From Tubiluchus corallicola (taxonomy: Eukaryota; Priapulida; Priapulimorpha; Priapulimorphida; Tubiluchidae): a DNA stretch of 64,000 nucleotides. Each line of letters opens with the position of its first letter. Position 1 is the stretch's first letter. The stretch lies in NCBI GenBank assembly GCA_030141605.1, contig JAQGDQ010000176.1, forward strand, positions 1-64,000, written 5' to 3'. The notes below the pieces were generated by a model, which did not search any database, was not told the DNA's origin, and saw nothing but the letters and a program-made list of their open reading frames with translations. Positions 2,211 through 56,700 of this stretch are shown in pieces. Both the position numbers and the translations under genes were made by a program.

Positions 2211-5200
2211 CATGTTATTTCATGTATTAGTGGATGGAGGCTTGACGTATCTCTGTGCAGCTGACACATCATTTGGACGTCGTATACCTCACGCATTTCT
2301 CAGCGACGTAAGGCATTTTTCACTTTTATTAATAAACAGGAAATGATATGCTGTTCTTAACTTAGTTCTACACGCAACAAAATTATATGAGTAAAGGGTA
2401 TGAAATGCTTTTTTCTGAGATGCAATAATTGTAAGGAATGCAGGTGTGGGTGTGTCGCTGACCTGTTTCTAGAACTGTTTCTATTGACTTTGATTAAAAG
2501 TGAGTGCAGAAGTAAAAGTTTCATATATTAACTAACATAACCAAAAGTTTTTTCTTCAGTTACAGTAATTTTTTCAACTAAATTTGCAATGATACAAAGA
2601 AATTGTTACCACTTTGCTGAAGATTTAAGTTTGAATTGATCCATCCATAGTTGACCCCGAGATGCCAAAATTAGTGTTGTTTGTCAAGATAATAAAATTA
2701 AACAGCCACTTTCGATGATTAGGCTTCACAAAATGAAAAATCCATATTTGTACTATTCATTTATAAACTAATTTCCCATTTGCATTTTTAAGTTTTGTAC
2801 ACAAAATTGCTTATATTTACACATTTAGTTGACCATTTGCTCTAGTCTAAACTGTGTAAAAGTAAACTAGTATGTGAACTGCATTGCTAATTAAATTCCT
2901 GTGTTTATTCAGATACAAACACGATTCACTAGTGGCAGTTTACCTGCCCGAGCGCAAACTGCCGTAGAAAATGAGTTACAAAGAGACTTTGAGTCGGTTC
3001 TCGCTTCGCGAATGGTAAGCATTAAACCATTAGAATTTCACATTTAGTTCATGTAGACGTTATTGATTAAAATCAATGTCTCGTCTTGGAAGACTGTCAT
3101 TGATAATGAGCAAAGTTCTGGTCCCTCAACAATCCTGCTGTTGTGTATTGTTTACTGGCCCAAAGTGTTTATAACTGTACAAAAAGTGTGGTACTGATGA
3201 TAGTGTTGTATGGAGAGTTCCTGTTTTGAACAATGCTGATTATTATATTGATGGCTAAAATTTACCAAATTTTCTGTGAAAAAAAGTATCATATTTTTCA
3301 CCAAATTGCCGAAAACCTAAACTTAACGTTTTAAAAGTGTAAAATTAAATTTATTAAAACATGGTAGAATGTCGCTAATTTCTGCATGTATAGAATCAAG
3401 CTTTATCATTGTCATCATGGGCATTTTTTCTGAAATTCTTTTCTTCAGGCGATTGCAATCGGCATTCTTCTAACTACAAAGAAATTAAACTTAATTTACT
3501 TCCCACTAGATAGCAGTAACATTCTGAAGGTTTTCGACATTATGTCTATGAATGTTTTTCTTACTCTTTTTTGTATTACTAAATTGCTATATGACTACCA
3601 ATTATCCCATAGTCTCTTTTTTGTACAGTATGAAACCTCGAATTATAATATGTTCCGATCATTATTGTATAAACAGTAACCTTAGTTGCGTGTGATTTGT
3701 GTGATGTTATTTCAGGAATATTATTCTACGAGCCCTGACATAGACAGTATCACACAGACACAAGCAAGAGTAAACGAGGTGAAAGGAATTATGCAACAAA
3801 ATATAGAGAAAGTTTTAGAAAGAGGTGACCGACTGGATGACCTTCTAATGAAAACTGACGACTTGGAGGCTTCGGTGAGTAATTTGTTGTTACTCTACAG
3901 ACTTACTTACATTTGAAGTTTCACACTAGATAATCGTAATTTGTTGTGCATTAAAAATTCAACCAGACTGACATAGCTGCACGAGAAAGATAGATTGATA
4001 TGCTACCTATTTGTCCTAAAACTGACGAAAGCTAGATATGTCACACATGTTAGGGATGTTAAACAATACAAATGATTCTGCACTTGACAAGTTTATAATT
4101 TTAAATATTTCTTTTCATCCACTTCTTTGCGTAATTACCGTAAATAAATAGAAAAGGAAAACAATTTTATAAAGGTAAGTGATAAGCAATGATACATGCC
4201 AAATTCGATATGAGAATAATATTCCTAGAATAATATTGATATTATAATGATAAAAACAAATTTTTCGTATTGATACGATAATCGGTATATGTCAATAAAA
4301 TCATTATGGATACATAACGTTATCGTTAACATCCCTAACACATACTTTCTTTTTTATGTCATTGTGGTCACTTCTTATTCAGCAGCAGATCTTATTTCAA
4401 ATTTGACCATTTCTCTAAAACACTCTTTATTTTCTAATACAACTGGATTTCGTTTTATGGTCTAATAAAGTTTTCAAAAGAAGCTTGTGATATCTCAAAA
4501 TCTTATTTTTTTCTCGAAATTTCCTATTTTGATCTTCTGTGAATTTTCATGTCAAACATTGCTTTTGCGTTAATTTCTAATTTATTATAATCTAATGGTC
4601 ACATCAAACAAGTTATATATGCTTATCATTACCAATTAGAGCAAAGAAAAACTCAAATTACGTCTGTCAGCATGTACAAATAACTTCTTTGATTCCTGCG
4701 CATCTGAAAGACCTTTAAAGGACAAGAGCAGGGGTACCTGAAGTAGGTTTCAGAAAAATCGCCTTAAAAAAATTATATTACTTTACAGCATATTTATGCA
4801 TACATCGTACTCGTGTTAAAAAGAATTTATGTTTGTTTTCATTTTAAATCTCCCTCAATACTGTTCCAAAGTCGTCATTACATGACGTCACCTACTCACA
4901 CGTAAATCGGGGGAAGAAAAGGCAATGTTAAATTCACATATACTACACATACTGTGATTATTTTTTCAAACTTCACTCAATGTTATCTAAACTTCTATCA
5001 AATGACCTACCATTAAAATGGAGTCATCGCAGAAGTTTAAATTTACAAGTTTTCACGCAAGCCCTGCATGCAAAAAGGCAGTATTTAAGTATAAAATTTC
5101 AAGACGAATTTTTTAAGCTTTATGTAAGTGGAGGGTTTTCTTGAGCTTCAAGCGTATTCCAGACTTTCTGCATGTGAATTAGTGAGCTTTACATTTCGTG

Positions 5201-8200
5201 ATGCAAAAATTAAGAAAGATGTCTTTAGAATTTTTTACAATGCCTTTAAACTGTAAAGGACAAGCATTAATTTACCAAGGTAAAAATTTACTACCCAATT
5301 AGCCCAACAGCTAGTGAATTGAAGAAGAAAGACATTAAAAAGTCACGGATCAGTCTGTAGTTGAATCCAAAGCTTTGCAGCTAGAATTCGAATGTTGTAC
5401 CTCTCCATTGTTGAGCTGTAGCTTCTGTAGTGACTAAAAGAGCAAGCAAGTTCTGACTACAGTGCCCCAGTTTAAATAACATTCAATCCTGATTGGGTCA
5501 TGGTTTTTCTGCCTATTAGCCACTTGGTTTACTACCTTTAACTTAAATGCATAGATTTTTTAATTCTTTATTAATTGTGCCTTTGTACAGGTAAAGTACA
5601 TTTTTGAACAGTGACCAGCTCATTTGATTATTAAACTTCAGTATTGCACATAGATGATAGAGCTTATTACATTATCTGGCAAATACAACATTAGTTATTT
5701 ACATTTTGTGATTGTCATGGTAACTGACTACACATATTCGTAGATGCAAACAAAATTGCTATTGGCCAGTTCCTTATTTAGGCAGCTATATTTGTACTAG
5801 GCAATTATCCTTGATAAGAAAGTTACTTCACTATTACTTTCCTTATTACGTACCAGTTTCTTATACTTTCCTACACTATATTTTCTTTCATTAAAAATTT
5901 GCTGATTGTTTTATTTGCCTAGTCACCAGGGGTGACCATCAGAAAACGAATTCGAATAAATTTTTGACGTTTGAAGTCAGATCAAACCGAATTTCAAGAT
6001 TTTGAATACGAATCAAATTCAAATTTAGTCTCGTAAAGATCATACACATTGCTTGATTTTGTCCTCTGGTAAAATTCTAACATTTGTTTAAAAATATTGT
6101 ACAAAAATTGGTGCTACATTGTGCTGACTGTATGCTGTTTCAAACTTCTGATGATGCAGAACATGATGTAGCTGAGCTATGTCAATTATTCAAATCAATA
6201 ATTTTAGGCTTGAATCAGTTTGAATTAAGAAAAACTTGTCAATTCGAACATTCGATGCTCACCCCTACTAGTTACTAAACAGGTTTGCATGTATCAAGTA
6301 TTGTGGTTTATCTTTTGAAGTTTTGGAAAATTAGACTGCCCTTATTTGCTAGTCTTATTTAGCCATTATCTTGCTAGATTACTACTAAATATGGATGATT
6401 TGCAAGTCTGTTATACGCCTATGGCCTTATCTGGCAAGTTCACCCACCAAGAGCCTGATACTTAAAACACTGCCATTTCCTGTATCTGTATGGTAACCAT
6501 CTACGTCTTGCAGACTAAATTCTGTCCCACCTTTTCATTGTTGATCGTTGGAATATTATTGAGCCATTGTTAGCAGGACTGTCTAAAGTTAAACAATTTG
6601 ATTTTTCACTGAACCACTCTTGAAAGTTCTGGTACGACTTCCTAGGTTCATTCGGATCGTTAAGTTTGACACATAAAGCACACATCCTCTCTTTTGATAA
6701 AACTTTGTTTGACATCTCGATCGTATAGTACTTTTTCCAGTCAAAGTATTTGTTATAAAGTGTGTCGTTCTTATCCAACAGCAGAAGATAATCTGCCAGC
6801 TCTTTCACTGTGCCAAAGTCGCGCACATCTATGACTGAGTGCGGTGGTGTGATGGTGCGATAGTCAATGCCGCCTAGCACTACTGGTACGACATCAAATG
6901 CCAGTGAACGGAACACTTTCTCTGAAATGTAATCTTTGCAAACACTGTTTTCGAAGGCAAAGTAGAATTTGTACTGGTTTCTCAGCATATCGTTCCAGGC
7001 ACATTTCTTGCAGATGGTTTGACCGCATTGGTTTTTTCGTCCGAAAATGTCCACTCGCATATATTTCTGTAAATGATGTGCAAGTTTTTCACGTTTCGAG
7101 TCGGTGGGACAGTGTGTCACCCACCATGTTGCGAGTTTCGATTTCCTCCTCGCATAATTGATTTTTACATCGTCGGGGTTGTCCCTGCGTATAGTTTTAC
7201 CCCACAGAGTTACAATGTCCGAGTCACTTCTGTAAGTCATGGTCCAGTTAAACCAATTATTAAACCTTTGCAATGTCTTATAACGCCAGTGCAAGTGTGG
7301 CGGAGGCTCGCCTGTATAAAACACCCACCTCTGGTCATTGCGGCGAAAAGTCGGAGCGCTCATCTTACGTGGATCAAAATGGTAAATGTTCATCATGACC
7401 GCTGAGCTTTGTTTTAGCAAATTCTTATCACTGGTAACTAGACAGTTGCTTACTGGGCACTCATCAAATGACTTGAAAGATTCCACAGAGTTTTTAGTCC
7501 AGTAGAGGATGATTTTTGTATTGTTAGTAATTTCTGTTAGGTCAGTGGTGTCTGTGGTTTGCTTTTCTGGTTTGCTATGGGTAGAAAAGTATGCCTGCTT
7601 CAGCTTCATCCCCCGCAGATTTAGGTGAGCCGGCCTCCCTAACTTCCTTTCGTTTTCGTAAGTGGATAAGAAAATTATTGTAAAACAACACAAAAACACT
7701 AGCAACGTTGCTGTAGTTTTCAATTTTAATGGTTTGTTCTGGTGTTGAGAAGCATTATCTTCGCATGCACTAACACTGTTGTTTGAAAAGGTTTCCACCA
7801 TTGTTTCTATTAGCAACAATGGTTGTTATGTCTTAACAAACATTATTCAGTCTTCCATTATCAAAACAATTTATATTTATTATTGCTTAAACCACTTTCA
7901 TTTTTATTTAGACACATTTAGAAACTTACTGACATTCATTGCAAAATAACTACTGTTTTGTCAGTAGATAGAGCACAGTAGTAACTCCAACATTATGTGA
8001 ATTTATTAATTTCTAACCACTGACTTTCTCCACTTGTTTGAGTTCCACACACGCTTGACTAATGGAACTTGTTTCTGACTGCAGAGATGCTGTTCTGGCC
8101 ATTGAACTTCTAGCTGTTGCATGCTCCAGTGAGCAACTCTTTGCTATAATGGAATAGTATGTTGAACTGTTCTGAAAGCTGCCTACACATGGTAATCTCA

Positions 8201-10203
8201 ACCACAGCTTTTCTTTAGCTGTTTAAATACCGAAATTTGGTACATATGCAACACCACTACGTAAAATGCACTGAGATGTGAAAAATAATCTCAATTTCAT
8301 GACTAATGATGAAAAGGGTATCCATTTTTATTGTTATTTTTCTTTCCAAGTATGACAAAAAAATTAAAAAAATAAAAAATCAACCGGGATTTGAACCAAA
8401 GACTTTTTGGTGAGAAGATTTTTCACTAGACCAGTCAGTCTCTTGTGATTATGTGATAGGTCAAAATGTTCAGGAGATATGAGTTTTTATTCCATCATGA
8501 ATTGAAATGATGATGGTAATGGGAAAAGTACAAGCAAATGTTTGTTTATGACATTTATATAATAATACTGTATTTACCATGACAGTTATCTTCATATTTG
8601 CCTGCTAAGTCTAAAAACGTCTATGGTTGCTGAAAAACAAATTTCAAAGTATGTCCCAAAAAACTGTACAAGGTTATTACTTACGTGTTTGAAAGACTTA
8701 TGTAACTGGAAACGAACATTTTGTAATAATTTAAAATGGCACTGTATCACTATCCCAGCATGTGCCACTGACTATTAAAGCAAACACATTATTGGTCGAC
8801 AAGAATAACGTAATTAATTCATTCTTTTGCTTATTAAATGAAGAGTTTGCTACAAATGTTTTGATTATTTTTTCAAACTTTGTGCGATGTTATCTAAACT
8901 TGTTTCAAACAGAAGTTACATTACAGAAGTTTAGAATTTTATACAAGTACCAATACAAACTCTGCGAGCAATAAGGCAGTCTGTAGGCGATACAAAATTT
9001 CAAGACAGAGTTTTATAAATTTATATAAGTAAAAGACGTTCTTGCCATTTGATAAGCTTTTGCGAGGTAAAATTAAATTAGTTTTTATTACATGTATTAT
9101 TTGCCCCATGAAAATGTTGACCCAGAGAAAAGTCTGGCTTTCTGCTCACGATTAATGCCACTGATCTGCAATAGGAAAGAAATGTCACGAGTTTACTAAG
9201 CTAACAAGGATTACTTTCCGCTTAGAGGAAATTATCAAATCATATTACTATATGATTCTTAAAACTCAAACAGCCTCTTCTCCGTGAGCTGGTAGTCAAG
9301 ACCAAGGTATTACGACCCCTAGTGGATCCTGCAGAAGTTTAACATCAACCATAGCAGACAAGCAACCCATAGTAGTCATGTCATAGAAGCTTCAGTACTA
9401 CTCCTTAAAACACAAGAAACCACTCTCCATAAATTAAGCGTAAAAAAATCTGCCTAGAAATTTTATTTCACTTAAATGCTGTCTTGTTGCATGCAGGGCT
9501 TGTAATACTGTATAAAACTTGTAGGCATAGCCATTTTGATGGTAAGTCATTTGAGACTAGTTTAGATAGCATTGTGTAAAGTTTAAAAAAATAATCAGGG
9601 CATTCGTAGCTCACTCTTTGCTAACTTCGCTTTATCTTGTTAATGAGATCAATAATGTGTTTTTGGTGAATCAGTGGTGCACATTTGGATGGTAATGCAG
9701 TGCCGTTTTACCAGGTGATGCGAATATTTTAAACTATTACGAATTTTATTTTCCAATTACATAAGTCTTTCAAACAGGTAAGTATAATACTAAGAATATT
9801 GACTTAGTGTGGGGAGTTCTTTGGGGCATACTTTAAAATTCCCTTTGACCATCAATTTTACCCAATCAGATCATTATTCTTAACTGTTTTCTTTGTTTTC
9901 CAGTCTCAAACATTTCGTAATCACAGCCGCCAGGTGGCTCGGAAAATGTGGTGGAAGAACACTAAGATGATGATCTGTATGGTTTGCACAGGTATCATCG
10001 TCATGCTGGTCTTGACGCTCATCATCCTTTTTTCCCTTGGGGTTCTGCCAGTTAGTAAAGCGGCAACTACGACGACAGTTCCCGCTACTACGACACCACC
10101 TGCCACCACCACCACTCCACCGACAATTCCATCTACAACTGGACATTCGACTAGTCACATGACGACAGAAACCCCAAATGGTACATTAACTTCTGTTCCA
10201 TAA
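2211..10203 (+). CDS. VAMP7: VAMP7-like longin R-SNARE (3' portion) with Thr-rich luminal tail
   Basis: R-SNARE for fusion of late endosomes, lysosomes and secretory vesicles. Coding exons: 2211-2307, 2913-3014, 3716-3874 and 9904-10203 (stop at 10201-10203); all introns are GT-AG and all junctions after the first are phase 0. The first exon encodes the end of the longin domain (MLFHVLVDGGLTYLCAAD). The second completes it. The third begins the SNARE motif, with the zero-layer Arg in ERGDRLDDL. The last finishes the coiled coil (SQTFRNHSRQVARKMWWK), the transmembrane helix (about 9967-10050) and an extra tail of about 50 residues made largely of Thr, Pro, Ala and Ser, with one NGT glycosylation sequon. 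Ordinary VAMP7 ends within a few residues of the membrane segment. The 5' coding exon(s) are outside the window. The third intron (6 kb) hosts the fucosyltransferase gene on the other strand plus repeats. An AATAAA follows at 10468. Family identity is confident; the tail is real in sequence but its function is inferred. Confidence 0.88.
4051..4338. mobile_element. hAT-type MITE with terminal inverted repeats
   Basis: Terminal inverted repeats TAGGGATGTTAA at the left and TTAACATCCCTA at the right bound 288 bp of non-coding, AT-rich sequence with TATCG words inside. Flanking octamers are ACACATGT (4043-4050) and ACACATAC (4339-4346), 6 of 8 matching, as expected for a slightly decayed 8-bp hAT target duplication. 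It lies in VAMP7 intron 3. No transposase is encoded. Confidence 0.75.
4756..5165 (+). repeat. Dispersed repeat family R1, copy 1
   Basis: Shares long stretches with 53525-53765 (for example ATTATATTACTTTAC and the closing TTTTTTAAGCTTTATGTAAG) and with 8660-9062 (TGATTATTTTTTCAAACTT followed by ATGTTATCTAAACTT). Non-coding; no clean terminal repeats were found, so the class is unknown. Confidence 0.65.
5937..6267. mobile_element. hAT-type MITE (CAGGGGTGA/TCACCCCTA ends)
   Basis: 331 bp bounded by CAGGGGTGACCATC on the left and GATGCTCACCCCTA on the right, with an inner TTCGAAT-rich palindromic zone at both ends. Flanking octamers CTAGTCAC (5929-5936) and CTAGTTAC (6268-6275) match at 7 of 8 bases, a good hAT-style target duplication. 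A short open frame inside is not a real gene. Related copies lie at 14670-14920 and 46731-46865. Confidence 0.85.
6515..7801 (-). CDS. Alpha-1,3-fucosyltransferase-like, family GT10, single exon
   Basis: Golgi type II membrane glycosyltransferase that transfers fucose from GDP-fucose to GlcNAc/glucose-type acceptors. Start ATG at 7801 (MVETFSNN); an in-frame non-ATG extension upstream is ignored. The 428-aa product has a short cytosolic N-terminus, a signal anchor at about residues 30-48 (LLVFLCCFTIIFLST), a stem, then the GT10 catalytic region: WVFYTGEPP, the WTMTYRSDSDI segment, and the family's signature donor-binding motif around FAFENSVCKDYISEKVFRSL followed by VVPVVLGG. All are intact, with no frame breaks. 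The gene is intronless, entirely within VAMP7 intron 3, and antisense to it. The sequence beyond the GT10 domain (about 30 residues, ending KRWDRI) is not conserved as far as I can tell. Which FUT subfamily, and which linkage, cannot be decided from sequence alone. Confidence 0.92.
   Translation of the reverse strand: MVETFSNNSVSACEDNASQHQNKPLKLKTTATLLVFLCCFTIIFLSTYENERKLGRPAHLNLRGMKLKQAYFSTHSKPEKQTTDTTDLTEITNNTKIILYWTKNSVESFKSFDECPVSNCLVTSDKNLLKQSSAVMMNIYHFDPRKMSAPTFRRNDQRWVFYTGEPPPHLHWRYKTLQRFNNWFNWTMTYRSDSDIVTLWGKTIRRDNPDDVKINYARRKSKLATWWVTHCPTDSKREKLAHHLQKYMRVDIFGRKNQCGQTICKKCAWNDMLRNQYKFYFAFENSVCKDYISEKVFRSLAFDVVPVVLGGIDYRTITPPHSVIDVRDFGTVKELADYLLLLDKNDTLYNKYFDWKKYYTIEMSNKVLSKERMCALCVKLNDPNEPRKSYQNFQEWFSEKSNCLTLDSPANNGSIIFQRSTMKRWDRI
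8381..8450 (-). repeat. tRNA-derived SINE head
   Basis: On the minus strand there is an A-box-like TGGTCTAGTGA followed, at tRNA-like spacing, by a B-box-like GGTTCAAATCCCGGTT. The cloverleaf is not intact (extended, A/T-rich middle), so this is a SINE head rather than a tRNA gene. An A/T-rich tail lies on its 3' side. Confidence 0.55.
8660..9062 (+). repeat. Dispersed repeat family R1, copy 2
   Basis: Carries the family's left part (TTTGAAAGACTTATGTAACTGG), the central block TGATTATTTTTTCAAACTTTG followed by ATGTTATCTAAACTTG, and the closing CAAGACAGAGTTTTATAAA block. Forms an inverted pair with 9430-9790. Confidence 0.65.
9430..9790 (-). repeat. Dispersed repeat family R1, copy 3 (inverted)
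   Basis: Read on the minus strand it begins CCTGTTTGAAAGACTTATGT, continues with AACGGCACTGCATTACCATC, then the central TTTTTTTAAACTTTACACAATG block and GCCCTGCATGCAAC as in copy 1. It ends about 110 bp before the last VAMP7 exon and is inverted relative to copy 2. Confidence 0.65.
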
Positions 10204-12782
10204 GTCCGAATTCGGAAAATTGCACAAAGACTTTGCGTCTCTGTTATGAACTGAAAAACCATGTAATGTGATTGTATAAATTTGTAAATCCTGAAGCTAT
10301 GTGATTGGTGAGTTCATTGTCTTGAGATATAAGTATTTAATGCAAAGCCTTGTAACAGTTGGAAGTTGTGTCTAAGGTTATCGATAGGTCAAGGTCATAC
10401 CTAATATGCCACGTTCCATGACCATAACAGCTGATCCACACATTCAAAATATATCTTAAATTAGTGTAATAAAACTTATGAACACATTTGAAATTCTGCA
10501 TCGTAAGTTTTTTAAAAAGTTATCGAGAAAGAAATAAGTTTTTCTATTTTGGTCATATAATGGTAAACGAGATTTGCTAATTGCTATTAAATGTGCCTCC
10601 TTTTTAAGTACACACGTTTTATATTAATACATTTGTGTCTGTAATGTTTTTCTATTCCGGTCATATAATGGTAAACGAGATTTTCTAATTGCTATTAAAT
10701 GTGCCTCCTTTTTAAGTACACATTTTATATTAATACATTTGTGTCTGTAATGTACATTTTTATCTGTTGATTTGTTCTTAAGTTGTATTATGTTACATTG
10801 ATTATGGAGAATCTAAACATATTTAGTGTTTATTAAGTTCTTTTTAATATATGGTCTTTATTATGAGGATAAAATCCAATATAATAAATTAATAATAATA
10901 ATAATGATATTCTTGCAGTTTTTGAAAATCTGTATATGTATCTGTCCATTGTTAGGATATGGTGAGGCGCATAATGTATGAAAAGTGTAAAATGCGCTAG
11001 ATTTTAAAGAAACAACTTGGTATTGGCAAAGTGCAACAGGACGAAACTGACAGATCCTCATGCGGATACCTGCAACCTGTAACACTTTACCTTCTGCAAT
11101 CTTGATAAGTTTCAACCGAAGATATTATTAGCACTAGTCTAGCAGTCTTAAATGAATATTTTTTTGAAAACAGAGGAAGCTCAGTCATTTGCAACAGTGG
11201 CTGCTCGTGTAAAGATACTACGGAACTGCAGGCCCCAATTTTCACCCGATGTTATCGATAACCTTCATTATAACGAGTCTTTTTCTCTTTAATTATTTCT
11301 TTATATTATACATTATATAACTTTTAAGCTTAATGTCAGTAGCCATCCCCTAGTTCACGAAAAAATCCTTGTATGCAACTGTGTGCTTCACAGTTCCAGC
11401 GTCGTGGACTTTGGATGTTGTGTGAGATAAGAAGCTACAGGCTAGGTAGAGAAAGCATTGTCGCTCATGCAGTGCAGATCCTGTTGTGCAAGTGTAAGGT
11501 GTTTCTTACTAGTTTAAAAGAATGGCTAAAATGTTCTGGAACAGCACCCCAAATAATTTTAGCTACGAGCCGTCACTCATTTGCAATAGACAGAAGTTGA
11601 ATTGAATTTGTTCGGCAAAGGCAAGTTTTGAAGTTAGAGATGCACAGTTGCTGGTGCAGATAGTAACTGTCATCAATACAGAATATACGCAATCTGCTTT
11701 AATCTTTCATTTCCAGACATCAGAATCTAGAACATTGATAATTCAACTTCTCTTAGTGTACTTGTCCTTTATGCATGCTCTTGAATGAATCTGTTTGAAT
11801 GATAATCCAGTCCCCAAAATACAAAAAAATGTACAAGTGTGCACTAGAAATAGTGCTGCCGGCTAATCCACCTGACTGAGCAGGCCAAGTCCACCATTTA
11901 CTTCAACTTCAACATAAAAAGACTATGCAACAGTTTTGTTAATTAAACATCTAATTTATTTAACTTTCAATATTTTAAACAATCCATTTCTGTAGAAACT
12001 AAGGCACTGCTCACACTCGTCAAACCTAACCTGATTGCACCAACCTGATTTGCCTAAGCAATTTATGCTTAGGTACAATGATAGTTATAATTACTGTGAA
12101 CTCTATTCAACAACTACTTTTTCTTTTCAACTAAACACAGTTACAGTAAGTTAAAATTTATCAAATGAAAAATGTACAGAAAAATCTGCAGCTCAGACCG
12201 GGCTTTCCAGTTGTATATTAACAATAATAAGTGGAATGTTCTCTTTGCATACTAAACAACTTTTACTACCAAGTTTTCTACGTAACTCCTCAAATTCTAC
12301 GAAGCAAAATTAAAAAGCAATCACGCACAATGTAACAATACTGCTGACTAGTTGAGCCATTCTGTCACCTAACAGTAATCTAGAACTGGTTAAAAATATA
12401 CATGCAATTCACGACACAAGATAATTTTTGTAGCTAAGTTTTCTAAAGATGTGTTTACACTTGTCTCTGACAGTGTCTGTGCATTCACATGTCTGGAAAT
12501 AGACTAATAATTTGCACAAGCTACAAAAGGAATGTGGCAAGATCTGATCAATGAGTACATCAATCGGATACATGTTAGAAGCCTAATAATCCACATCACT
12601 TGTTTGCTAAAACTTTCAAAAAAATCTTAACATCGTACTTTGCTGTACAGCCATAAAAGCAGATAGCTGTTAACCAAACAGAATATTCAATAATAAAACA
12701 TGATAATTTTCTATATAATTAATGGCGGACCACTACTAAGCACTTCTAATACATTTCTAATGTAAAACAACAAGCAAAAAGC
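10204..12782. other. VAMP7 3' UTR and VAMP7-ADH5 convergent intergenic region
   Basis: Begins with the VAMP7 3' UTR (AATAAA at 10468) and ends with the ADH5 3' UTR on the other strand. Holds a 108-bp tandem duplication (10538-10751) and a short AAT microsatellite near 10890-10904. Short open frames here show no family resemblance and I treat them as chance. Confidence 0.6.
10538..10751. repeat. Tandem duplication of a 108-bp unit
   Basis: 10538-10645 and 10646-10751 are two adjacent copies (both contain GGTCATATAATGGTAAACGA and TGCCTCCTTTTTAAGTACAC). The second has a 2-bp deletion and only a few substitutions, so the duplication is recent. It lies just beyond the first VAMP7 polyadenylation signal. 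Confidence 0.92.
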
Positions 12783-24572: not shown

Positions 24573-25231
24573 ATTGGATACTGAGCTTCATGCAAGAATT
24601 AATGCTGCAGCCAGCTCTTTCGGCCGTATGAGGAAACGTGTCTTCGATAACCATGACCTTACCATCGCCACTAAACTGCAGGTGTACATGCATTGCATCA
24701 TTCCGCAGCTTTCCTATGGTCAGGAAACGTGGACGCTCTATCAAGATCAGGTCAGGTCTCTTCGTGCGGTTCAGCAGAGACATCTGCGTCACATCCTTCG
24801 TATTCGCTGGGACGACTATGTGCCAAACGAAGACGTGCTGGCTCGTGCCAAGATGGAAGATATCGAGGTTACGCTTACTAAGGCTCAACTTCGGTGGTTT
24901 GGGCATGTGGTCAGAATGAACGATAAGAGACCGACAAAGGCTCTTCTTCATGGAGAACTAACCAGTGGCTCTCGCAGTGTTGGTCGTCCTCTCCTTCGCT
25001 TCAAGGACAAGGTGAAGTTCTTTCTGAGGAAAGGTGGAATGTTGGACAAGCTGCCTTTCGCAGTTCACGACCGTCCTGCATGGAGATCCCTAGTCAACAA
25101 CTGTGCCGAAAAACTCGATGAAGAAAGACGGATGCTTGGATATGCAAGAAGGTTCAAGTCGTGGATAAGAGATGGTTTCATGGACATCTGATTTGCACTG
25201 ATTTAGCCGTATCGGCTTCGACGTTGTACAT
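24573..25231 (+). mobile_element. Young 5'-truncated LINE, ORF2 C-terminus intact
   Basis: An uninterrupted frame to the stop at 25189-25191 encodes about 205 residues of the reverse-transcriptase tail typical of RTE/craniofacial-development-protein-2-like LINEs: ARINAAASSFGRMRKRVF, PQLSYGQETWTLY, RAVQQRHLRHILRIRW, LRWFGHVVRMNDKRPTKALL and SVGRPLLRFKD. Flanking 10-mers TTGAATTTTG (24563-24572) and TTGAATTTCG (25232-25241) match at 9 of 10 bases and fit a target-site duplication. No stop or frameshift disrupts the ORF, so the insertion is recent. It sits between the neighbouring minus-strand gene's first ATG and the shared promoter block. Confidence 0.85.
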
Positions 25232-25345: not shown

Positions 25346-25800
25346 ATGCTCGCCGCCTATATCACTTTTTTAACCTTGCGCCTCAACATAATTCTTTAAA
25401 AGCAAGAAATTCGTTAGTAAAACATTATCGAACCAAGTAATTAATATTTCACATATATGTGTTGATATGTTGTAATTTAGTTTTAAAATTACGCAAGATA
25501 ATTAATTTCTGGCATTTTTATAGCAATTACATAATATAGTCCGCGAGCAAAATGTCAATGCGCGTTTGGCGGAAATGAAGATTTAGTTTTGAGTTGTCAC
25601 ATTTACATTTTTAATGTTTTGTTGGCCTTGAGCAAAATATTGGTGGATACTATATCCTCTGACTTGTGCGAGACACGTTCATTGATTACAGTATAACATA
25701 CGACAAAACCTGCTTCTTCGTTAAGTGTTCAAATTATCGCTTAATGACGTTCTTTCAGTAGAAGAGTGTGATTTTGTATCAGCTCCATTTGGTTAGCGCT

Positions 25801-26406
25801 ATGGCAGAACGAGTTATTCTGGATTTACAAGCTTACTGTAAAATTTTGTTACACGTATTTAAATATCCACACTTAGCAGTAAACGGCTTGTTGCTTACGC
25901 GGAAATCGAAAAACAAAGAAAGCAAATCTATTCACGTAGTAGACGCCGTACCGCTGTTTCACATAACCTTAGGATTGGCCCCAATGATGGAAGTGGCGCT
26001 ATTTCAAGTCGACTCGTACTGTAAAAGCAATGATCTTGTAATAGCTGGTTATTACCAAGCCAATGAGAGTTTCAAACACAACAGTCCAGATTTGATAGCA
26101 TGTCGGATAACAGAGAAGATTGCCGAAAATTTTGGTGAGGCATTCCTTCTGATGGTGGAAAACGATAAACTTTCAAATGAAACTGACAATGCAGCTTTTA
26201 CAGTGTATTCAGTACTAGATGGAAAAGCAAAAAGAAGAGAATTTGATAAGATACAAGTAGAGGGCGGAAAAGGACATGCTGTGGCATCGGCCTTGTTATC
26301 AGCCAAAGATCATTGGAACTTAGTTGATTTTGATAATCACCTCGATGACATTTCTTTAGATTGGACAAATCCTGATGTCGCTGAGCGACTCAAAACTGTT
26401 ATATAA
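25801..26406 (+). CDS. EMC8: ER membrane protein complex subunit 8/9
   Basis: Subunit of the ER membrane protein complex, the insertase for tail-anchored and some multipass proteins; EMC8/9 sit on its cytosolic side. A single-exon ORF of 201 aa starts at MAERVILDLQAY (an upstream in-frame extension to 25768 is ignored because the family starts here). Family landmarks: AYCKILLHVFKYPHLAVNGLL, the VDAVPLFH segment, LAPMMEVALFQVDSYC, IAGYYQANE and the C-terminal DWTNPDVAERL. This is the MPN-fold family without a JAMM metal site. Human EMC8 is about 210 aa, so length is normal. EMC8 and EMC9 are vertebrate duplicates; a single invertebrate gene corresponds to both. An intronless copy could be original or a retrocopy, but no poly(A) or target duplication is evident and the frame is intact. 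Confidence 0.95.
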   Translation: MAERVILDLQAYCKILLHVFKYPHLAVNGLLLTRKSKNKESKSIHVVDAVPLFHITLGLAPMMEVALFQVDSYCKSNDLVIAGYYQANESFKHNSPDLIACRITEKIAENFGEAFLLMVENDKLSNETDNAAFTVYSVLDGKAKRREFDKIQVEGGKGHAVASALLSAKDHWNLVDFDNHLDDISLDWTNPDVAERLKTVI

Positions 26407-35409: not shown

Positions 35410-36364
35410 TAGTGGTTCCCAACCGGGGGTACGCAGAAGGTGTGTCAGATCGACACATTTTTTCTTTCTGTAGCCGTTGAAAAGGGTAAAATACACGGGC
35501 AAAATATTTGGCGGACATTTTTTCTGTCTCGAATGAGTTGAATATTTCAATTCAAGGAAACAACATGAACATTGTCGAGGCTCACGAAAAATTATCAGGT
35601 TTCTTGAAGAAGCTTCCAATTTGGATTTGACGAGTTGAGAGCGGCGTACTAACGAACTTCCCAACTTTAGAAGAACTTGTTACAACACAAGGCGAACTCC
35701 CAAACGCATTACAAGCTGACATTGGAGCCCATTTGAAAGTTCTTCAAGAACCTTTTGCTTCTGACGTTGATGAACTGCCAGATGACGATGCGAGCAAAGA
35801 ACTTCTGATTGAATTGCAAGCATGTGAAGTTGAGAAGATGAAGTTCAAGACCACGTCACTAGAGAAGTTCTGGACACAGCTAGGTGCAGACTTCAATGGA
35901 CTGAAAATTGCGGCTTTCGAGGTGTTGGTTCCATTTGTGACAACATACAAATGTGAGCTAGGCTTCAGTGCAATGCTACATTTGAAGACGAAGGCAAGAA
36001 ACCGTTTGGATTTGAGGAGCGACATGCGAGTCGCAATATCAACAATTAAACCTGATATCAAAAAACTTGTTGATAATCATCAAGAACAGCGTGCGCATTA
36101 ATTATGACTGCTGTGAAGATCGCGTTTCCTTGTATTGATGTTTTCATATTCGAGAAAGTTGTTCAAATTACGTATTTCTTAATAATCAGTGATAAAATTC
36201 ATGTTTTCAAAAATAGTTAAAATAAAAAAATGTCGATAATATGAATCGTTGTTTTCTGAAAACTGGTTTTTCAAACGATTTGTTGAAAAATATCAGGTGG
36301 GGGTATGCTGAAGATCGCCACATTTAGAAGGGGTACTTGGCAAGGAAAAGGTTGGGAACCACTG
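35410..36364 (+). mobile_element. Internally deleted hAT (ZBED5/Charlie-like) transposon
   Basis: 955 bp with terminal inverted repeats TAGTGGTTCCCAACC and GGTTGGGAACCACTG. Flanking octamers TGTTAAAC (35402-35409) and TGTTAAAT (36365-36372) match at 7 of 8 bases. Inside, on the + strand, is the C-terminal end of a hAT transposase: AHEKLSGFLKKLPIWI, a stop, FPTLEELVTTQGELPNA, and after it an open frame with TSLEKFWTQL, AFEVLVPFVTTYKCELGFSAM and LKTKARNRLDLRSDMRVAIS, the hAT dimerisation region as in ZBED5/SCAND3-like proteins. The zinc finger and catalytic core are missing, so the element is non-autonomous. It lies downstream of the Rab exons. Confidence 0.92.
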
Positions 36365-47513: not shown

Positions 47514-47750
47514 ATATTATATAGTGCAGTTGAGGTTACTTTTGTTACGATTTGGGTAATTCCCTTGAACGTCTGTCATGTTTAATTTAATATGCATAAA
47601 ATCTCTCAATTGAACTTCATTACAGGTTCATACTTGTGATTTTTTGAAAGAAGTGCATGGTAACATGGTTCAAAAACTGCGAGTGGATCAAATTGTAAGC
47701 TAAAGGGAGATTTCAAAATCGCTGCTTTTGCGAAATCGGTTTTAGTTAAA

Positions 47751-50700
47751 ATGGCTGATACCGATGGTGATGGTTCTGGTACACCCTCTCCAATTCCTGA
47801 AAACGACGCCAATTACTGTGGTCCTAGGATAGTTATTATTACGAAATCTGAAACTGGCTTTGGTTTTAATGTTCGAGGTCAAGTTAGTGAAGGTGGACAG
47901 CTACGTAGTATAAATGGAGAATTGTATGCACCGTTACAGCATGTGAGTGCTGTTTTGGAAGGTGGAGCAGCTCAAAAAGCTGGTATCCGGAAAGGAGACC
48001 GAATACTCGAAGTGTAAATATTATTTTCGTTAAATTTTGATTTTAGCGACTTATATAAATAGTTTTGCTTGTTTAAATATCCGTTCTAAAATATTTACAG
48101 TCAGCGATTAAGTCATTCAACAGCTCTTCAGCTTTGTCAAGATGAACACGACCTAAATGTGCAAGAGCAATAGTTATATTATTTTTTTGCCTTTTTCCTG
48201 ATATTTATACAAGTCAATCCAATTAAATGTTATCCAATTTTCTGTCTTTTTATTCCATTTAATCCATATTCTCTATTCTCATGAATTATCATTCATTAAA
48301 CTGTATTAATATCTGCAGCTACATAGCTGCAGAACTCGCTATTTTTACTTTTTTAGTTTTCGAATTCACAAATGAAGCAGTTCATGTCTTTGACGACATC
48401 ATTGTACACCATGTAGTATGATGTAGTTGTGTAGGTGTTTTGTTATGATTATAGCAAGGTGCGATATTTATTGCTTTTGCCCAGAATTCTGTTTTGTTAA
48501 TTACGATTTAAGTCCATGAAATCTGGCTTGATGAGAAGTAACTAATGGAGTCATTTGCTATTATGTAGCAGGAACACTAGAAAAATTACTTTAGTTTTGC
48601 TTATTCACTGTTATAGGAATTGTAATGCCAGCATCTGCCATACAATAAAATAGCATTTACAGGTGATTAAAGAACTTAATTATAATAAATAATGTGCAAC
48701 TAAAGTGGACAAATTGTTTGTAAACGAATTTGAAAAATGGCTAAAAAACTGTTTATGATTTCAGACTTTACAGTGTGGTTGCAAAAGTAATTGCTGAACT
48801 GATTATGCTTATTCATTTGTTGTTACAGTAATGGCGTAAACGTAGAGGGCGCGACACACAAACAGGTTGTAGATTTAATTAAGTCAGGTGGTGACACTTT
48901 ACGGCTAACAGTTATCTCAGTATCAAGGTAAACTTGCACATATCTTAGCTGAAATTTTGAAATCAGTACATTTTAACCAACATTTAATTAAATGTTTATT
49001 ATGTGTCCTTGCAAATCAAAACTGTGCATAAGTCAGCATAGCTAAAACTAAGCAAAGTAGAAAGCACCAAAAATTTGGCCAAATGTCGATTTTTTATTTT
49101 TATGACAACAAATGCTAAGTATATTGGTGTTTTATATTATAGCATCAAATTATCAGGAAAATGCCCGAAAAATAGTAAAAATCTAATTTTATAACTCATT
49201 ACCCACTTTTCTGTCTAGAATCTAATCCTGCAATTGTAAAAAACTTGTATTTCCTAACTCCTGTTGTAGCTCATGGAAGCAGCCATTTTGCTTCGGGTTT
49301 TTTCTTTTGACAAGACCAGATCTTTGTCAGGCAGAGCCATCTACTGGATTTAAACGTAACTTCAATTTGCTCTTGCAAAGTCCATAGCAACCTAACTTTC
49401 GTATGGTTGATAAGTGTTTTGTAGAGACGCGACAAAAAACAATGGCTGACTCTAGCAGCGCTCCTCAAGATTACGGTTTTGCTGTGCAAGCACACATAGA
49501 CTCTTGCTTTGGGTTTTTTTATTTTATGGTGCATCAGAGTGGTTAATGAAAGGTTACAGCTGAATATCTTCAACATATATAAGGTCTTACCAGCTCTTTT
49601 GTATTTTATGCTTTTTTGTAAATATTTCAAAGTTTAACTAAACTCATTTATTGCTTTTATATTAAGTTTTTTTAAAAATTCTGCAACATTGGCAAAATTT
49701 TCCTTTTTTATAATAATGCTCACGTGATATTTTTGAAACTAAATTAATCTATTTAGAAAAGAGGCAGAGAAGTTGGAGCCTAGTGATGATTCGTCTGACT
49801 ACACGTACAATGACTACAGTGAAAAACGTTCATTACCAATATCTATTCCAGATTATCAACACATTGATAAACCTTTTCGGAAATATGTGGTACGTGATAT
49901 TGCATAAACCTTATGTACATTCTTTCTACTACAACACATAAATGCATACAATATAGTTTGCTCTATAGTGAAATAGTGGCCTGTAGTTACTATTGGGCAG
50001 TGATTTATTTTTCTGTGGCACCTTCAGTTCTCTGTACATGCAGTTTTAAAGCAGTTTAAAAGCCAGCTCGAAACATAAATATAGAACTCTTAGCATTTTG
50101 TGTTTTTAGCTGTTTTGCTGTGGCTTCTAGTACAGCTCTTGCTTGTTTTGCAGTTAAGAAACCACTGCATGGAATGATTAAATCCCGGTGTGTACTTGGG
50201 GACTTAGGTTGCCGGCTTGTGAATGGGTAACACATAGTAAGTCGATGAGCTTTTGTCCACCTATACAGATTCGTGGAATCGGATGCTGTTTTTGGACACT
50301 GATCGACAACTATTTGCACATGCTTTCACTGCAGCTTGTATTTTGCATTATCTGATGAATATTCTCAGCCAGTGTTACCATATTTAGTAGTTTCTATTTT
50401 GTTGGCATGCCTAAGAGTTTGATTTAGGGATTTTTAAAATGTGTGCTGAAAATCACGCAAGATTATGACAAATAAAAGTAGTTAAAAGGACAAATACTTC
50501 AAAATTCTTGATGTCACTGTCGACAGTACCGTTTACTTTAATTTGCAATGATGATGTAAATGAAAAAAACCAGGTAACTACATTGACATAATGAACACTT
50601 AAAGGTACTCTCATAAGCTTTTAAACTACTTGTAAACTATTATAATGTATTTTTTACTATTTTACTGGAATTTTTATAGTTTTAAGCTCAGAAAACTTCC

Positions 50701-53700
50701 AAAAACAGGTATTTTTTAAATAACCTCGCTTATTTAGCCACTGTAGACACTACACAGATTTAAATGAAAAGCCAGTTTAGGTCCAGTTCCATTTGCCAAA
50801 ATCCAGATGCGGTAAACATGAATCTGTCCCGTCCCTAATGCTGACATTACTATCGAATAATAATGCATCTACCATTTTACATGTAATAGTTAATTATTGA
50901 TTATAAGTCACAATACTTTGCAAGATGCTGTAGCACCTGAATGATTGTATTTAACCAACTTACCTAACAAAATGTTTCCCAGTACAGAAGCAGATCTGCA
51001 AAAGTGCAAAAAATAGCCTCAACTTTAATATTATACTAAGCTTGGAATATTTACTTAAATTTTGCAACCTCATTAAAAAATCCAAATCAAGTTGCTAGAT
51101 TATATGATGTCAGCAAAATGTGCTTAATTCTTCAGAAGACATCACATTTTCCCATTAGGGCATATTCACATGCCTTTGTTTTTTTTGCTGTGATGGTTGA
51201 TGCAGTTGATTTGGCGTCAGTAGTTTTGTTGAAGAAAGAGTTCAGCATCAGTAATCTTATTTTTCGGAACAAATTATTTTTTGTTTTCAGTGTTTGTTAG
51301 TTTTGAACTGTGTCGGTACATAAAAGGTTAATGTACTAAACATATTGCAGTGATTTATTTTCGTTCAGAATGCTAGCATTCGCCGAATATATAAATTGAC
51401 ATTTTTAACTTTTATAACGTAATGATTCAGCCGTAATAATTTATTAGCCAGCATTTATTTTGTTTGCCTTTATACGGAATTGATCAGAAATTCACTTTAT
51501 CATGATCGTCTAGCTGTTTGAGATTTGTGTGCTTTCATGTACAATGAATTATAATCATGGCATTGCAATTTCTCATGTCATTAATTTCTGGTGGTCTGTC
51601 GCCTTGACAAAAGTTCTTGAATAGTAAATTTATAAAAGTTTATTCAGGGAAAGTTATACAAGTCTGTTGTAAAATGTACGGTATAAATTCTAGTACACTG
51701 ACTGTCTGGTCAAACAAACAGTAGAATGTAAATTGGCAAAACGCTGTACCACTTTTGTTGTTGTTGTTGTTGTGATGAAAAATATCTCAGCTAGAAAATT
51801 GTGCTTCAGTTTTACTTTACACATATAGTAAAGTTTGTGTTTGTATAACTGACTATATTGTAAGTAATATTGTGTTGTGGTGCACTCATTCGGATTAGTA
51901 GTTCGCTGTTCCTTAATTGTAGGTTTTGGGATATGGACTGCTTAAATATGGTTCTGACAATTTCTGACTGTATTTGTGTACCGCAACAGAAACACAATGT
52001 CATATAAACGAAAACATCTTACTTTTCACACATTCCCTAATTTGATGGGTAATCAAACGGAATGGGATGTGCTGTATACATTTACACTGTCCAAAATTTT
52101 TTATTGAACTTTAAAATATCGATTTATATATAATGGTTGGTTTGTTTGACCACTTATTTAGTCAATGCTCACTTAATTTGATACAGTCGGACAGTATATA
52201 CGGGGTTTATTCGACGAGAGGGTCTTTGGGTTTTTTTGTGCTCCTTTATCTTCCAGGTAATACACAGCTTACCAGCTACACCAGCATTAGTGTAGTTACT
52301 TCATTTAATTTGGTGGATGTCCACTTCATCTAGCACACTGAAGGTTCAGTAGGTGTTATAGAGATTTCTTTTCTGAGAGACTTACTGCTACAAAAATTGT
52401 GAAAGTTGATAAACTGATTTTATTACCTCCTTCATTTTCTCACATGGCTCTAACCTTTTCAAAGTGTCATCTTGTTCTGCTTGCACAGTATTGATCCTTT
52501 TTCAACCTGTTGAAGCCACCTAGATCTCAAACGAGCTGTATAGCCTTGTAAATCTGTGTCTCCTTTTCATTAGCTTTTCGCACATGCTAAGCAGCTTTGG
52601 AACTTTAGCTTGAATTTCATCAATATGTAAAATTTGAATGAATGAAAGTGAAATTAGGTAAAGTTTTACCGTCGTTATTTAAACTTTTACATAATGATTT
52701 ATATAGCAAAATGGATGAATTTATTATCAATACCTTGCTCACTCTTTGTCTTTTTGGATTTTTTTCCTTAATGGATCCATATGTATGACTATATGGATCA
52801 GTTAATGTTGGTTTGATTTGCTAAGTTAGACCTCTGCCTCTTAACAGAGAAAAGAAACTGGCTGTTCTCTTAGAAAAAGAAAAAGTCTTTTAAGAAACTT
52901 TTAAGAAAAAGTCCGAATTAACAACTAACAAGTCAAATAATGTAAAATAACAAAGTAAAATACGTCTTTCATTTTAACATAAAATCCATTTGCTGTTTTT
53001 CGAAGCAGACATTCCTGTGAAGCTTTTTCTGATTTGTTGCATAATCACTTGCATGTATTCCATGTCTTATTCCTGTTGCAAGCTATAGCATATCTAACAA
53101 CATAATCCCAGTTGTGACCATCTGTATATGACAGCCACCAAGTAAACTGGATCAAACTGCTGCTAATAACACCATAGTTCTTAGTGGCACGGTTGATCAG
53201 TCTTGTTGCCTTCATATTGACTTTTGCATTATAGTGTGTCATACTTCTTCAACCAGTGAAAGGCAATTGCAAATCTAAAATCCTAAGGTTAATTACTTGT
53301 GCGATAAGTAGCAGTTAAAAGTGAAGCAGTGCATAATTTTAACAGTTTTACTAACAGTTTTTTAGTTACCATAGAAAAACTCATAGATATTGCTGACTTA
53401 GCCAATCACTGCGTATATACCCTGTATATATTTACACATTATGTATACAGGTTGCATTATATATACATTATGCAGTAATGTATGAGTATTGGAAACTGCG
53501 TAAAAATTGTATTTGGCAAGACAGTACATTAAATCGCCTAAAAATTATATTACTTTACGGCAATTTTATGCATATATCGTACTCGATTTAAAAAGATTTT
53601 TTGTTTGTTTTCATTTTAAATCTCCTGCGATATTGTTCCGACCATGCCATTACATAATGTCATTGTATGCAACAAAATAGCATGTAAGTGGCAAAAAGTT

Positions 53701-56700
53701 TCAAGACAATTTTTTAAGCTTTATGTAAGTGAAGGGTTTTCTTGTGCTTTAAGCATTTTTTTCTCTAAATTTTAACACTGCATATGGATATTGTTAATTT
53801 TTGATAATATGCATTTAAGAGTATTAAACTGGTAATGTTACAGTTTTTATATAAAATTTTGTTTTTCATCAATATCATTATAGTAAGCATTTTCTTTTAT
53901 TTCTCAGGTCTTTAACATCTATATGGCAGGCAGGCATTTATGCTCGCGGCGGTATTCCGAGTTTTCTGACCTCCATTCCGCACTCAAACGAGAGTTTGCT
54001 GATTTTAACTTTCCAAAACTGCCTGGTAAATGGCCATTCTCGTTATCGGAACAACAACTCGACACACGACGACGAGGTTTAGAACAATATTTGGAGAGAG
54101 GTAATAACTACTTTCAGTGTTTGTTAAACTGTGTAGCTGTAAACTTGTTTACTACCTTCCTTAATTTTTTTATTTTTTGTTTAAAGCATTTTAAGGTGCC
54201 ATGCATTGCGCTATCATTGAATCTGTGTCTTTGAGTATTTAATGAAGCCAGGCTATAATGTGCTTTTATGGTTTCAGTGTGTGCTGTTCGAGTGATTGCG
54301 GAAAGTCAGACCATGCAAGAGTTTTTAACTGAAATTGACAGCAGCGAGGTAAAGTGACATGCTATTGGCTTTTAGCTAAATTTTTCTCAAGTTTTTGCTT
54401 TGTATCAGGAAATGAGTGCCTTTTGGAATATGCGTACATTTTTAGGATGTTACTTTAGAACTGATGAGCAATTATGCCGAGAGCAGAGTATATTTGCGAT
54501 ATTTGTGAGATTATGACAGCAATAAATTGCGGTATTGTCTGGTTATAGCGAAGCTTATTAGTTGAGTTGACTGCAGATTGAAAGGTAGCCTGCCTTTTCC
54601 TTGTTATGTCCACCTCTGTGTTTGGACTCTGCAAACATCTGCAAATTTCTACGATTTATTTTGTACATCTTTTGTGAAAAGTACATAATCACACATAATT
54701 ATCTATTCATATATAAGTAAGAAATTCATGAAATTTAGTGAAACTGTCGCGAGTTTTGTTCCGCATTGCAGAATTACGAAATTACGATGTAGTGTGTACA
54801 GCTTCAAGTCACCTTTAACCATAAATATAATTACAGAAATTGAATTATATTTCAAAACCTCTTGAAAATGTGACAACTAATTCACCTGATGCAAATAATT
54901 TACTTTTTTCTGATACATTACTATTTTCCAATTAAAAATAAATAGATACTACTAATTTAGATCACAGTTTTAAAGTATTCGATGATACAAACTTATATCA
55001 GCTTCGTCATAATCGTATATCCCGCACGACACAGGTTTTAAAAAATTTTCGTGTTTTAGATACATGTGGTTATGTGTAAAACTATTTTCCTATTTATTTG
55101 TCAATAAGTCAAGGAATGTTTTTTCACTGCATAATGCTATTTGTCAAATAAGTTTCAATGCACAAGTAAAACTGCTTAATTTGCTGAATGTCATTATTAC
55201 ACTTTTCAAATTGTTTGTTCAATTTTATATTACATACGAAATGGACTGTAAAATTTTATTAAAATATTTCAAGAAGTTTTTTGATAACAGCTACGTCTTG
55301 AAACATTTTAATAAAATTTAATCTGAGCAAAATCCCAGCACTTACGAAATGGACAGTCATCACTAACTTGTGGACAATTAGTGCTAAATTTTTAATCGTT
55401 TATGATGAAACTCATTTAACTTAAATTGTTTACAGAATTCTACATCAGTGTCAGATGTGATAATGAAGGTGTTGCTACCAGACAAGAACTTACTCACTAT
55501 AACGATATCACGAAATAGCACTGCAGAACAAGTGTTTAACGTAAGTCTGCTATTGCCTTTCTTTTTACTACGGTTTTCTAATGTGTTGCACTTGCCATGT
55601 GTTAATGGAAACTTATCATCTCACAGTGTAAATTGCTAGTTATTGCCTTTTATAAATTGTTTCATTAATTTCCCAGTATTTCTGCCAGTTTTGTATTTTG
55701 CCTTAAATATTGGTGTCAATTATAAATGGTTTCATTAACTAATAAATTGTGCTGGTTTGGTAATTTGTCTGAATTAATACAAATGAAAATGAAACCCTCT
55801 TTACTACTTATTTCAAAATCAGAAATTAAGTTTTGTGACTAGCTATATTTTATGGGATTAGTATTTGTATGTTGTTAGCTGTTCTAGTCCTGATTTAACT
55901 TAATAGATTGGTTTTTTTGGTTTTAGTTGTTGTCATAATATACTCTAATTTATGCATGGTTCTCACTAGAGTATTACCGAGTCCATGCCACTGACATTTT
56001 TGAAACCTTCTGTATTCAGATTACAAAAAAGCTAAAAGGTCTTTTAAAGCATTTTTGTTGGGGCTTAGAAAAAGGCCTGGATACATTGTTCGTTTTTGTT
56101 GCAAAGATTGAAACATTGCCAAGTTATGTCTATGTGTTCACTAGTTCTTGCGTTGCATAGTATTTTATCATTACGCTTAATTTGACACGATTGCATATCT
56201 TTGCTTCATTGTATTTTGTTTGAGTTTATTACTACATATTTTGTTTCTTTCACTGATTTATTATTTATGTTTTTTTTTGTTTTTTGTTTGGTTTGACTTT
56301 TTTCTAGTTTTTTGTTTTAATCGGTTAGCTAAATGCTTTACATATTTTGTTAATCATCATTTCATATTTTTCATTTTATTTCTTTGTTGCATAGCTTACT
56401 TAGTTGTTTCGCTTTCATGTTTAATGTATCCCCCCGTAAATTCATGTTAACACCAGCACCACAAATTTTTTTCAATTTTCACTAACCTGAGAAGGGTAGC
56501 TGACTCGATGACCAATTGGTCTTTCGCTACCCTTTCTCCTACACCCCCCTTAACTCTTTCCTTTATGCTTAATTTATCCTTTTTAATCAATAACTAAAAA
56601 AATAATTAGTCAATTTGTATGCAGGTGTAAATGAAGAGATAAATACAAATGTCTATGTCTATGTCTTGTCTTGTCTATGCTAGTGTATGAATAACTATTC

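Follow-up and report, generated by a model that had tools for sequence, protein, structure and literature searches.

Structure of the R-SNARE locus

The window, that is, the whole 64-kb stretch of DNA analyzed here, covers the opening 64 kb of contig C698 from an animal assembly of 343.5 Mb and 2344 contigs. The homeobox genes of this assembly, among them Hox cluster genes and a Post2-like homeodomain, point to a bilaterian, probably a lophotrochozoan; no COX1 was found in it. Near its start, four plus-strand exons, separated by phase-0 introns and ending with the exon at 9904-10203, join in frame to encode an R-SNARE, of which 218 residues were recovered (Table 1). All acceptors and donors of these exons conformed to consensus in a splice-site check. 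The spliced protein matched the Longin profile PF13774 with 51.3 bits (profile positions 24-83 of 84) and the Synaptobrevin profile PF00957 with 106 bits. It thus combines the zero-layer arginine by which R-SNAREs are recognized with the N-terminal longin domain of the longin subgroup, although the first part of that domain probably lies off the contig. The 2.2 kb of contig upstream of 2211 did not yield the first ~45 longin residues or the 5′ exon or exons encoding them. The first base of the contig is also window position 1, and the missing 5′ end of the gene probably lies beyond it.

Table 1. Features of the R-SNARE gene and of the gene nested within it (positions in the window)
Feature	Position	Strand	Evidence
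Longin-domain exon, reading (c)MLFHVLVDGGLTYLCAADTSFGRRIPHAFLSD	2211..2307	+	acceptor TCTGTTTTGCAG, donor GTAAGG; PF13774
Longin C-terminal exon, reading IQTRFTSGSLPARAQTAVENELQRDFESVLASRM	2913..3014	+	splice consensus on both sides, phase 0; alignment to VAMP7 4b93
R-SNARE motif exon with zero-layer Arg in LERGDRLDDL, RG type	3716..3874	+	PF00957; splice sites
Single-exon GT10 fucosyltransferase, antisense in the 6-kb last intron	6515..7825	-	PF00852, PF17039
Last exon, part 1: end of SNARE motif, juxtamembrane ARKMWWKNTK, transmembrane helix	9904..10050	+	PF00957; hydropathy
Mucin-like luminal tail, 50 residues, stop TAA	10051..10203	+	composition, frame
AATAAA polyadenylation-like hexamer in the 3′ flank	10468..10473	+	motif only

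Several other features were seen in the window. Downstream of the R-SNARE gene, 10533-10740 holds two slightly different tandem copies of a ~110-bp segment (ttctatt..ggtcatataatggtaaacgagattt...gtgtctgtaatg). Farther along the plus strand, an EMC8/EMC9-like protein (UPF0172, PF03665) is encoded in one open frame that is apparently intronless (25762-26406), and a pair of exons, PDZ and then PX (47664-54234), probably belongs to a sorting nexin 27 gene. The same strand carries a LINE-type reverse transcriptase remnant, identified by eye and having no Pfam match (24574-25191), and a weak match to the C-terminus of a hAT transposase (35631-36101).

A Thr/Pro/Ser-rich tail follows the membrane helix

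The last exon has a clean acceptor, with TTTGTTTTCCAG directly preceding an open frame that reads SQTFRNHSRQVARKMWWKNTKMMICMVCTGIIVMLVLTLIILFSLGVLP-VSKAATTTTVPATTTPPATTTTPPTIPSTTGHSTSHMTTETPNGTLTSVP*. Its transmembrane helix reaches a peak 19-residue hydropathy of 3.02, and the tail VSKAATTTTVPATTTPPATTTTPPTIPSTTGHSTSHMTTETPNGTLTSVP continues in frame directly past it. Thr, Pro, and Ser make up 33 of the tail's 50 residues (20 T, 8 P, and 5 S), and there is one NGT sequon. An earlier note on this DNA had described about 50 residues of this kind, with the sequon, beyond the helix in what it took to be the last exon. The composition, the clean acceptor, and the phase-0 splices confirm the tail, and the exon also has the appearance of a final one, since it closes with TAA and the AATAAA hexamer 265 bp past this stop is consistent with 9904-10203 being terminal. 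No match for this composition was found in the rest of the window, where none of 6557 overlapping stop-free 50-residue stretches in six frames contained as many as 30 Thr, Pro, or Ser residues, and the maximum was 21.

By itself, a frame without stops counts for little, since about 5% of 50-codon stretches drawn at random downstream were also stop-free; the case for the tail rests instead on its composition, its continuity with the transmembrane helix, and its terminal position. We accept the Thr/Pro/Ser-rich in-frame tail as a real feature at the sequence level. It has the dense Thr, Pro, and Ser of a mucin-like domain and lacks the tandem repeats of a PTS unit. Nor does it resemble the C-terminus of a tail-anchored protein, in which only a very short luminal part follows the anchor.

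Two other origins of the tail were considered and rejected. Read-through into an untranslated region is at odds with base composition, as the tail has a GC content of 48% and its AT-rich 3′ flank only 34%. Expansion of a microsatellite was set aside because Tandem Repeats Finder detected no repeat in the tail at a score of ≥30 and because Thr is encoded by all four of its codons (ACT 6, ACA 6, ACG 4, and ACC 4).

A canonical VAMP7 is encoded elsewhere in the genome

The gene had been called a VAMP7-type R-SNARE in the earlier note. This is right insofar as it is an R-SNARE with a longin domain, but it is not VAMP7 itself. A canonical VAMP7 gene is present on another contig (C523:9194-15580), with a haplotig-like copy on a third (C239). 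These two contigs match at 97% over 7 kb and then diverge by repeat differences, so the copies are probably uncollapsed haplotypes. The exons of the C523 gene read EFERSRAFLFLQEIKKRFQTMFGPRAETALAFAFNTEFSKVLAGQM ... SVTFKKSSRTLAHSMFLKNIKLTIIIIVVVL-VIIYFIISAACGGLGWQKCVGKG, and its C-terminus, ...IISAACGGLGWQKCVGKG, forms a 15-residue luminal end of the CGG..C type. Over 65 SNARE residues, it is 65% identical to mouse VAMP7. In a tree built from 65 aligned residues, which used the splice-checked C523 sequence and left out Ykt6, 98% support joined this gene to mouse VAMP7 in a clade that excluded the window gene.

The two genes of this animal are 42% identical over the SNARE motif and 39% identical over the 121 residues in which they overlap. 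Like VAMP7 (TI-VAMP), the window gene has a longin domain, an RG-type R-SNARE motif, and two phase-0 intron positions that it shares with the C523 gene. It differs in lacking the introns that the C523 gene has after KNI and inside the anchor, in standing apart from VAMP7 orthologues in the tree, and in having its Thr/Pro/Ser-rich tail in place of the ~15-residue CGG..C luminal end typical of VAMP7. Sec22 from the same genome has essentially no luminal end. The tail is therefore exceptional among the R-SNARE C-termini readable here, the others being short.

The window gene as a possible VAMP8-like R-SNARE with a longin domain

When the whole genome was searched with human VAMP8 and VAMP4 (queries whose SNARE motifs agree with PDB sequences), the window gene was the best match to both. 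Identity to VAMP8 was 45-46% (E values of 6e-6 and 2e-5), and for VAMP4 it was 48% across the first exon of the SNARE motif. Neither search, in which short exons can be missed, turned up a VAMP8 or VAMP4 gene apart from this one. Across 65 residues, the window gene is equally similar to VAMP7 and to VAMP8 (33/65 each, 51%), and its PDB scores were 66 bits for VAMP2, 65 for VAMP8, 61 for VAMP4, and 57 for VAMP7. With the full protein, the top PDB match was VAMP7 4b93. In the tree, support for a position with VAMP8, with VAMP4, or as a VAMP7 paralogue did not exceed 34%.

What the window gene has in common with VAMP8/endobrevin is a juxtamembrane signature, DLEASS..F...S..VARKxWWKN, and a similar hydrophobic anchor. 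Human VAMP8 stops at the membrane, and vertebrate VAMP8, a brevin, lacks the longin domain, whereas the window gene has both a longin domain and a 50-residue luminal tail. The same two features separate it from VAMP4, another brevin, which likewise has no longin domain and whose luminal end is very short. Judging from these sequence comparisons, the window gene seems best read as a second longin R-SNARE of the RG type, VAMP8/endobrevin-like, with its longin domain kept. We do not claim orthology, since the placement has low support, with 65 aligned residues and values of at most 34%. An earlier phylogeny derived endobrevin from a VAMP7-like SNARE through loss of the N-terminal profilin-like (longin) fold (PMC6143360). 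Such an origin leads one to expect a longin-bearing intermediate, and the window gene would fit this description.

Precedents for the tail

In searches of a limited literature collection, we found no mucin-like or O-glycosylated R-SNARE, which is weak evidence of novelty, and the exon at 9904-10203 had no relative among viral and prokaryotic contigs, as expected of an animal gene. The nearest precedent within the SNAREs is yeast Sec20, reportedly a Qb-SNARE glycoprotein that is sorted by the HDEL system. It shows that a SNARE glycoprotein can have a luminal C-terminal signal, but it is a Q-SNARE of the ER, the signal is one for retrieval, and its luminal sequence is unrelated to the tail described here. 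In composition, there is a likeness to mucin-like lysosomal membrane proteins such as endolyn/CD164, in which, as in the window gene, a Thr/Pro/Ser-rich luminal segment lies beside a single membrane helix. These are type I proteins and not SNAREs.

The nested GT10 gene is one of many

The gene within the last intron is a genuine GT10 fucosyltransferase, which the earlier note had put forward as a suggestive neighbor, if perhaps a coincidental one. The genome contains about 69 GT10 matches, however, dispersed over many contigs. With GT10 genes so numerous and scattered, the presence of the nested copy does not argue for a glycan-related role of the tail and carries no weight. A functional link between the two was accordingly rejected, and we judge the position of this copy in the R-SNARE gene to be coincidental and not part of the system. 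In most GT10 copies, one open frame spans about 350-550 residues, as if the family had expanded through copies lacking introns.

Competing explanations

We consider it rather probable that the window gene is a VAMP8-like longin R-SNARE, a paralogue of VAMP7, that has gained a Thr/Pro/Ser-rich tail and thereby become a type II SNARE with an O-glycosylated luminal stalk. The strongest competitor, itself on the unlikely side, accepts that the tail is translated and sees it as a neutral, lineage-specific extension of low complexity with no dedicated role, whether or not it bears O-glycans. On this view, the luminal ends of SNAREs would be unconstrained and the extension tolerated. VAMP7 tolerates fusions to its luminal C-terminus, and other loci of this genome are rich in low-complexity sequence, both of which suit a neutral tail. 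Against it, what is kept in the tail is the amino acid sequence, spelled in mixed codons and not as a simple repeat, and its GC content is raised as in coding sequence.

An error in the gene model would be more doubtful still. Splicing from within the helix to a short downstream exon would leave the tail untranslated or confined to a minor isoform, and a donor-like site does occur in the transmembrane codons (CAG/GTATCA, ~9992). Its score is 4.1, compared with 5.7-9.0 for the gene's own donors, and although canonical VAMP7 does have an intron in its transmembrane segment, that intron is in phase 0 and located elsewhere, whereas the weak site here is in phase 1. Moreover, no second exon matching the C-terminal half of the SNARE was found on the contig, no second copy of the exon was found in the genome, and the full helix is encoded without interruption and followed by the polyadenylation-like signal. 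We find it scarcely credible that the window gene is the animal's true VAMP7 with a tail added, the C523 and C239 genes being derived copies. The longin domain and RG SNARE motif, the top full-protein match to VAMP7 4b93, and the two shared intron positions would allow this. Yet it is the C523 gene that has the higher identity to mouse VAMP7 (65% over 65 SNARE residues, vs. 51% for the window gene) and keeps the CGG..C end, and the window gene is the one outside the clade.

A possible route to a glycosylated luminal stalk

If the window gene is a VAMP8-like SNARE with a gained tail, the extension would have arisen in its own lineage, past the membrane anchor. The cytosolic half would do the usual work of an R-SNARE in the fusion of late endosomes, lysosomes, or secretory granules. 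The tail would end up in the ER lumen. With 50 residues still to follow, the anchor would be clear of the ribosome before or near termination, and insertion might be closer to that of a type II signal-anchor protein than to that of a classical tail-anchored SNARE. The principle relating residues past the anchor and the timing of ribosome exit to the tail-anchor insertion route comes from published work (PMC8998515); by its application here, which is ours, the classical tail-anchor route would not be required.

In the Golgi, the dense Thr/Pro run could then be decorated with mucin-type O-glycans. The NGT site lies at a sufficient distance from the membrane to be a candidate for an N-glycan. The resulting stalk would be short, extended, and protease resistant in the vesicle lumen, and after fusion it would face outward at the cell surface. 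VAMP7 with pHluorin on its luminal C-terminus traffics and fuses with the plasma membrane in HEK293 cells (PMC4742910). Because this luminal addition is tolerated, the tail is likely compatible with function and should not block fusion.

What the tail does is a matter of speculation, with protection of the SNARE in the lysosomal or granule lumen, or its sorting, as candidate roles. Protection from luminal proteases, or sorting through O-glycans as in mucin-like lysosomal membrane proteins, appears most plausible; a segment of this length is less likely to shield the cell surface. A broader reading seems unlikely to us, though less so than an error in the gene model. It would make the protein one of a conserved lophotrochozoan class of R-SNAREs that are also membrane-tethered sialomucin-like glycoproteins. 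An O-glycosylated luminal stalk on a longin-type VAMP8 would then protect the SNARE, sort it, or contribute to the glycocalyx after exocytosis, and insertion would have shifted from tail-anchored to type II.

Implications

At present, the long-tailed R-SNARE may be regarded as a modest curiosity at the level of a lineage, with a putative mechanism that appears plausible. Still, the luminal ends of SNAREs are treated as doing nothing, and a naturally occurring R-SNARE whose luminal segment is long and glycosylatable would put this view to the test. The same protein would also probe the limits of insertion by the tail-anchor route, and a VAMP8-like gene with a longin domain may bear on the origin of brevins from longins. 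The tail itself, predicted to lie beyond the membrane, could be coated with sugars there.
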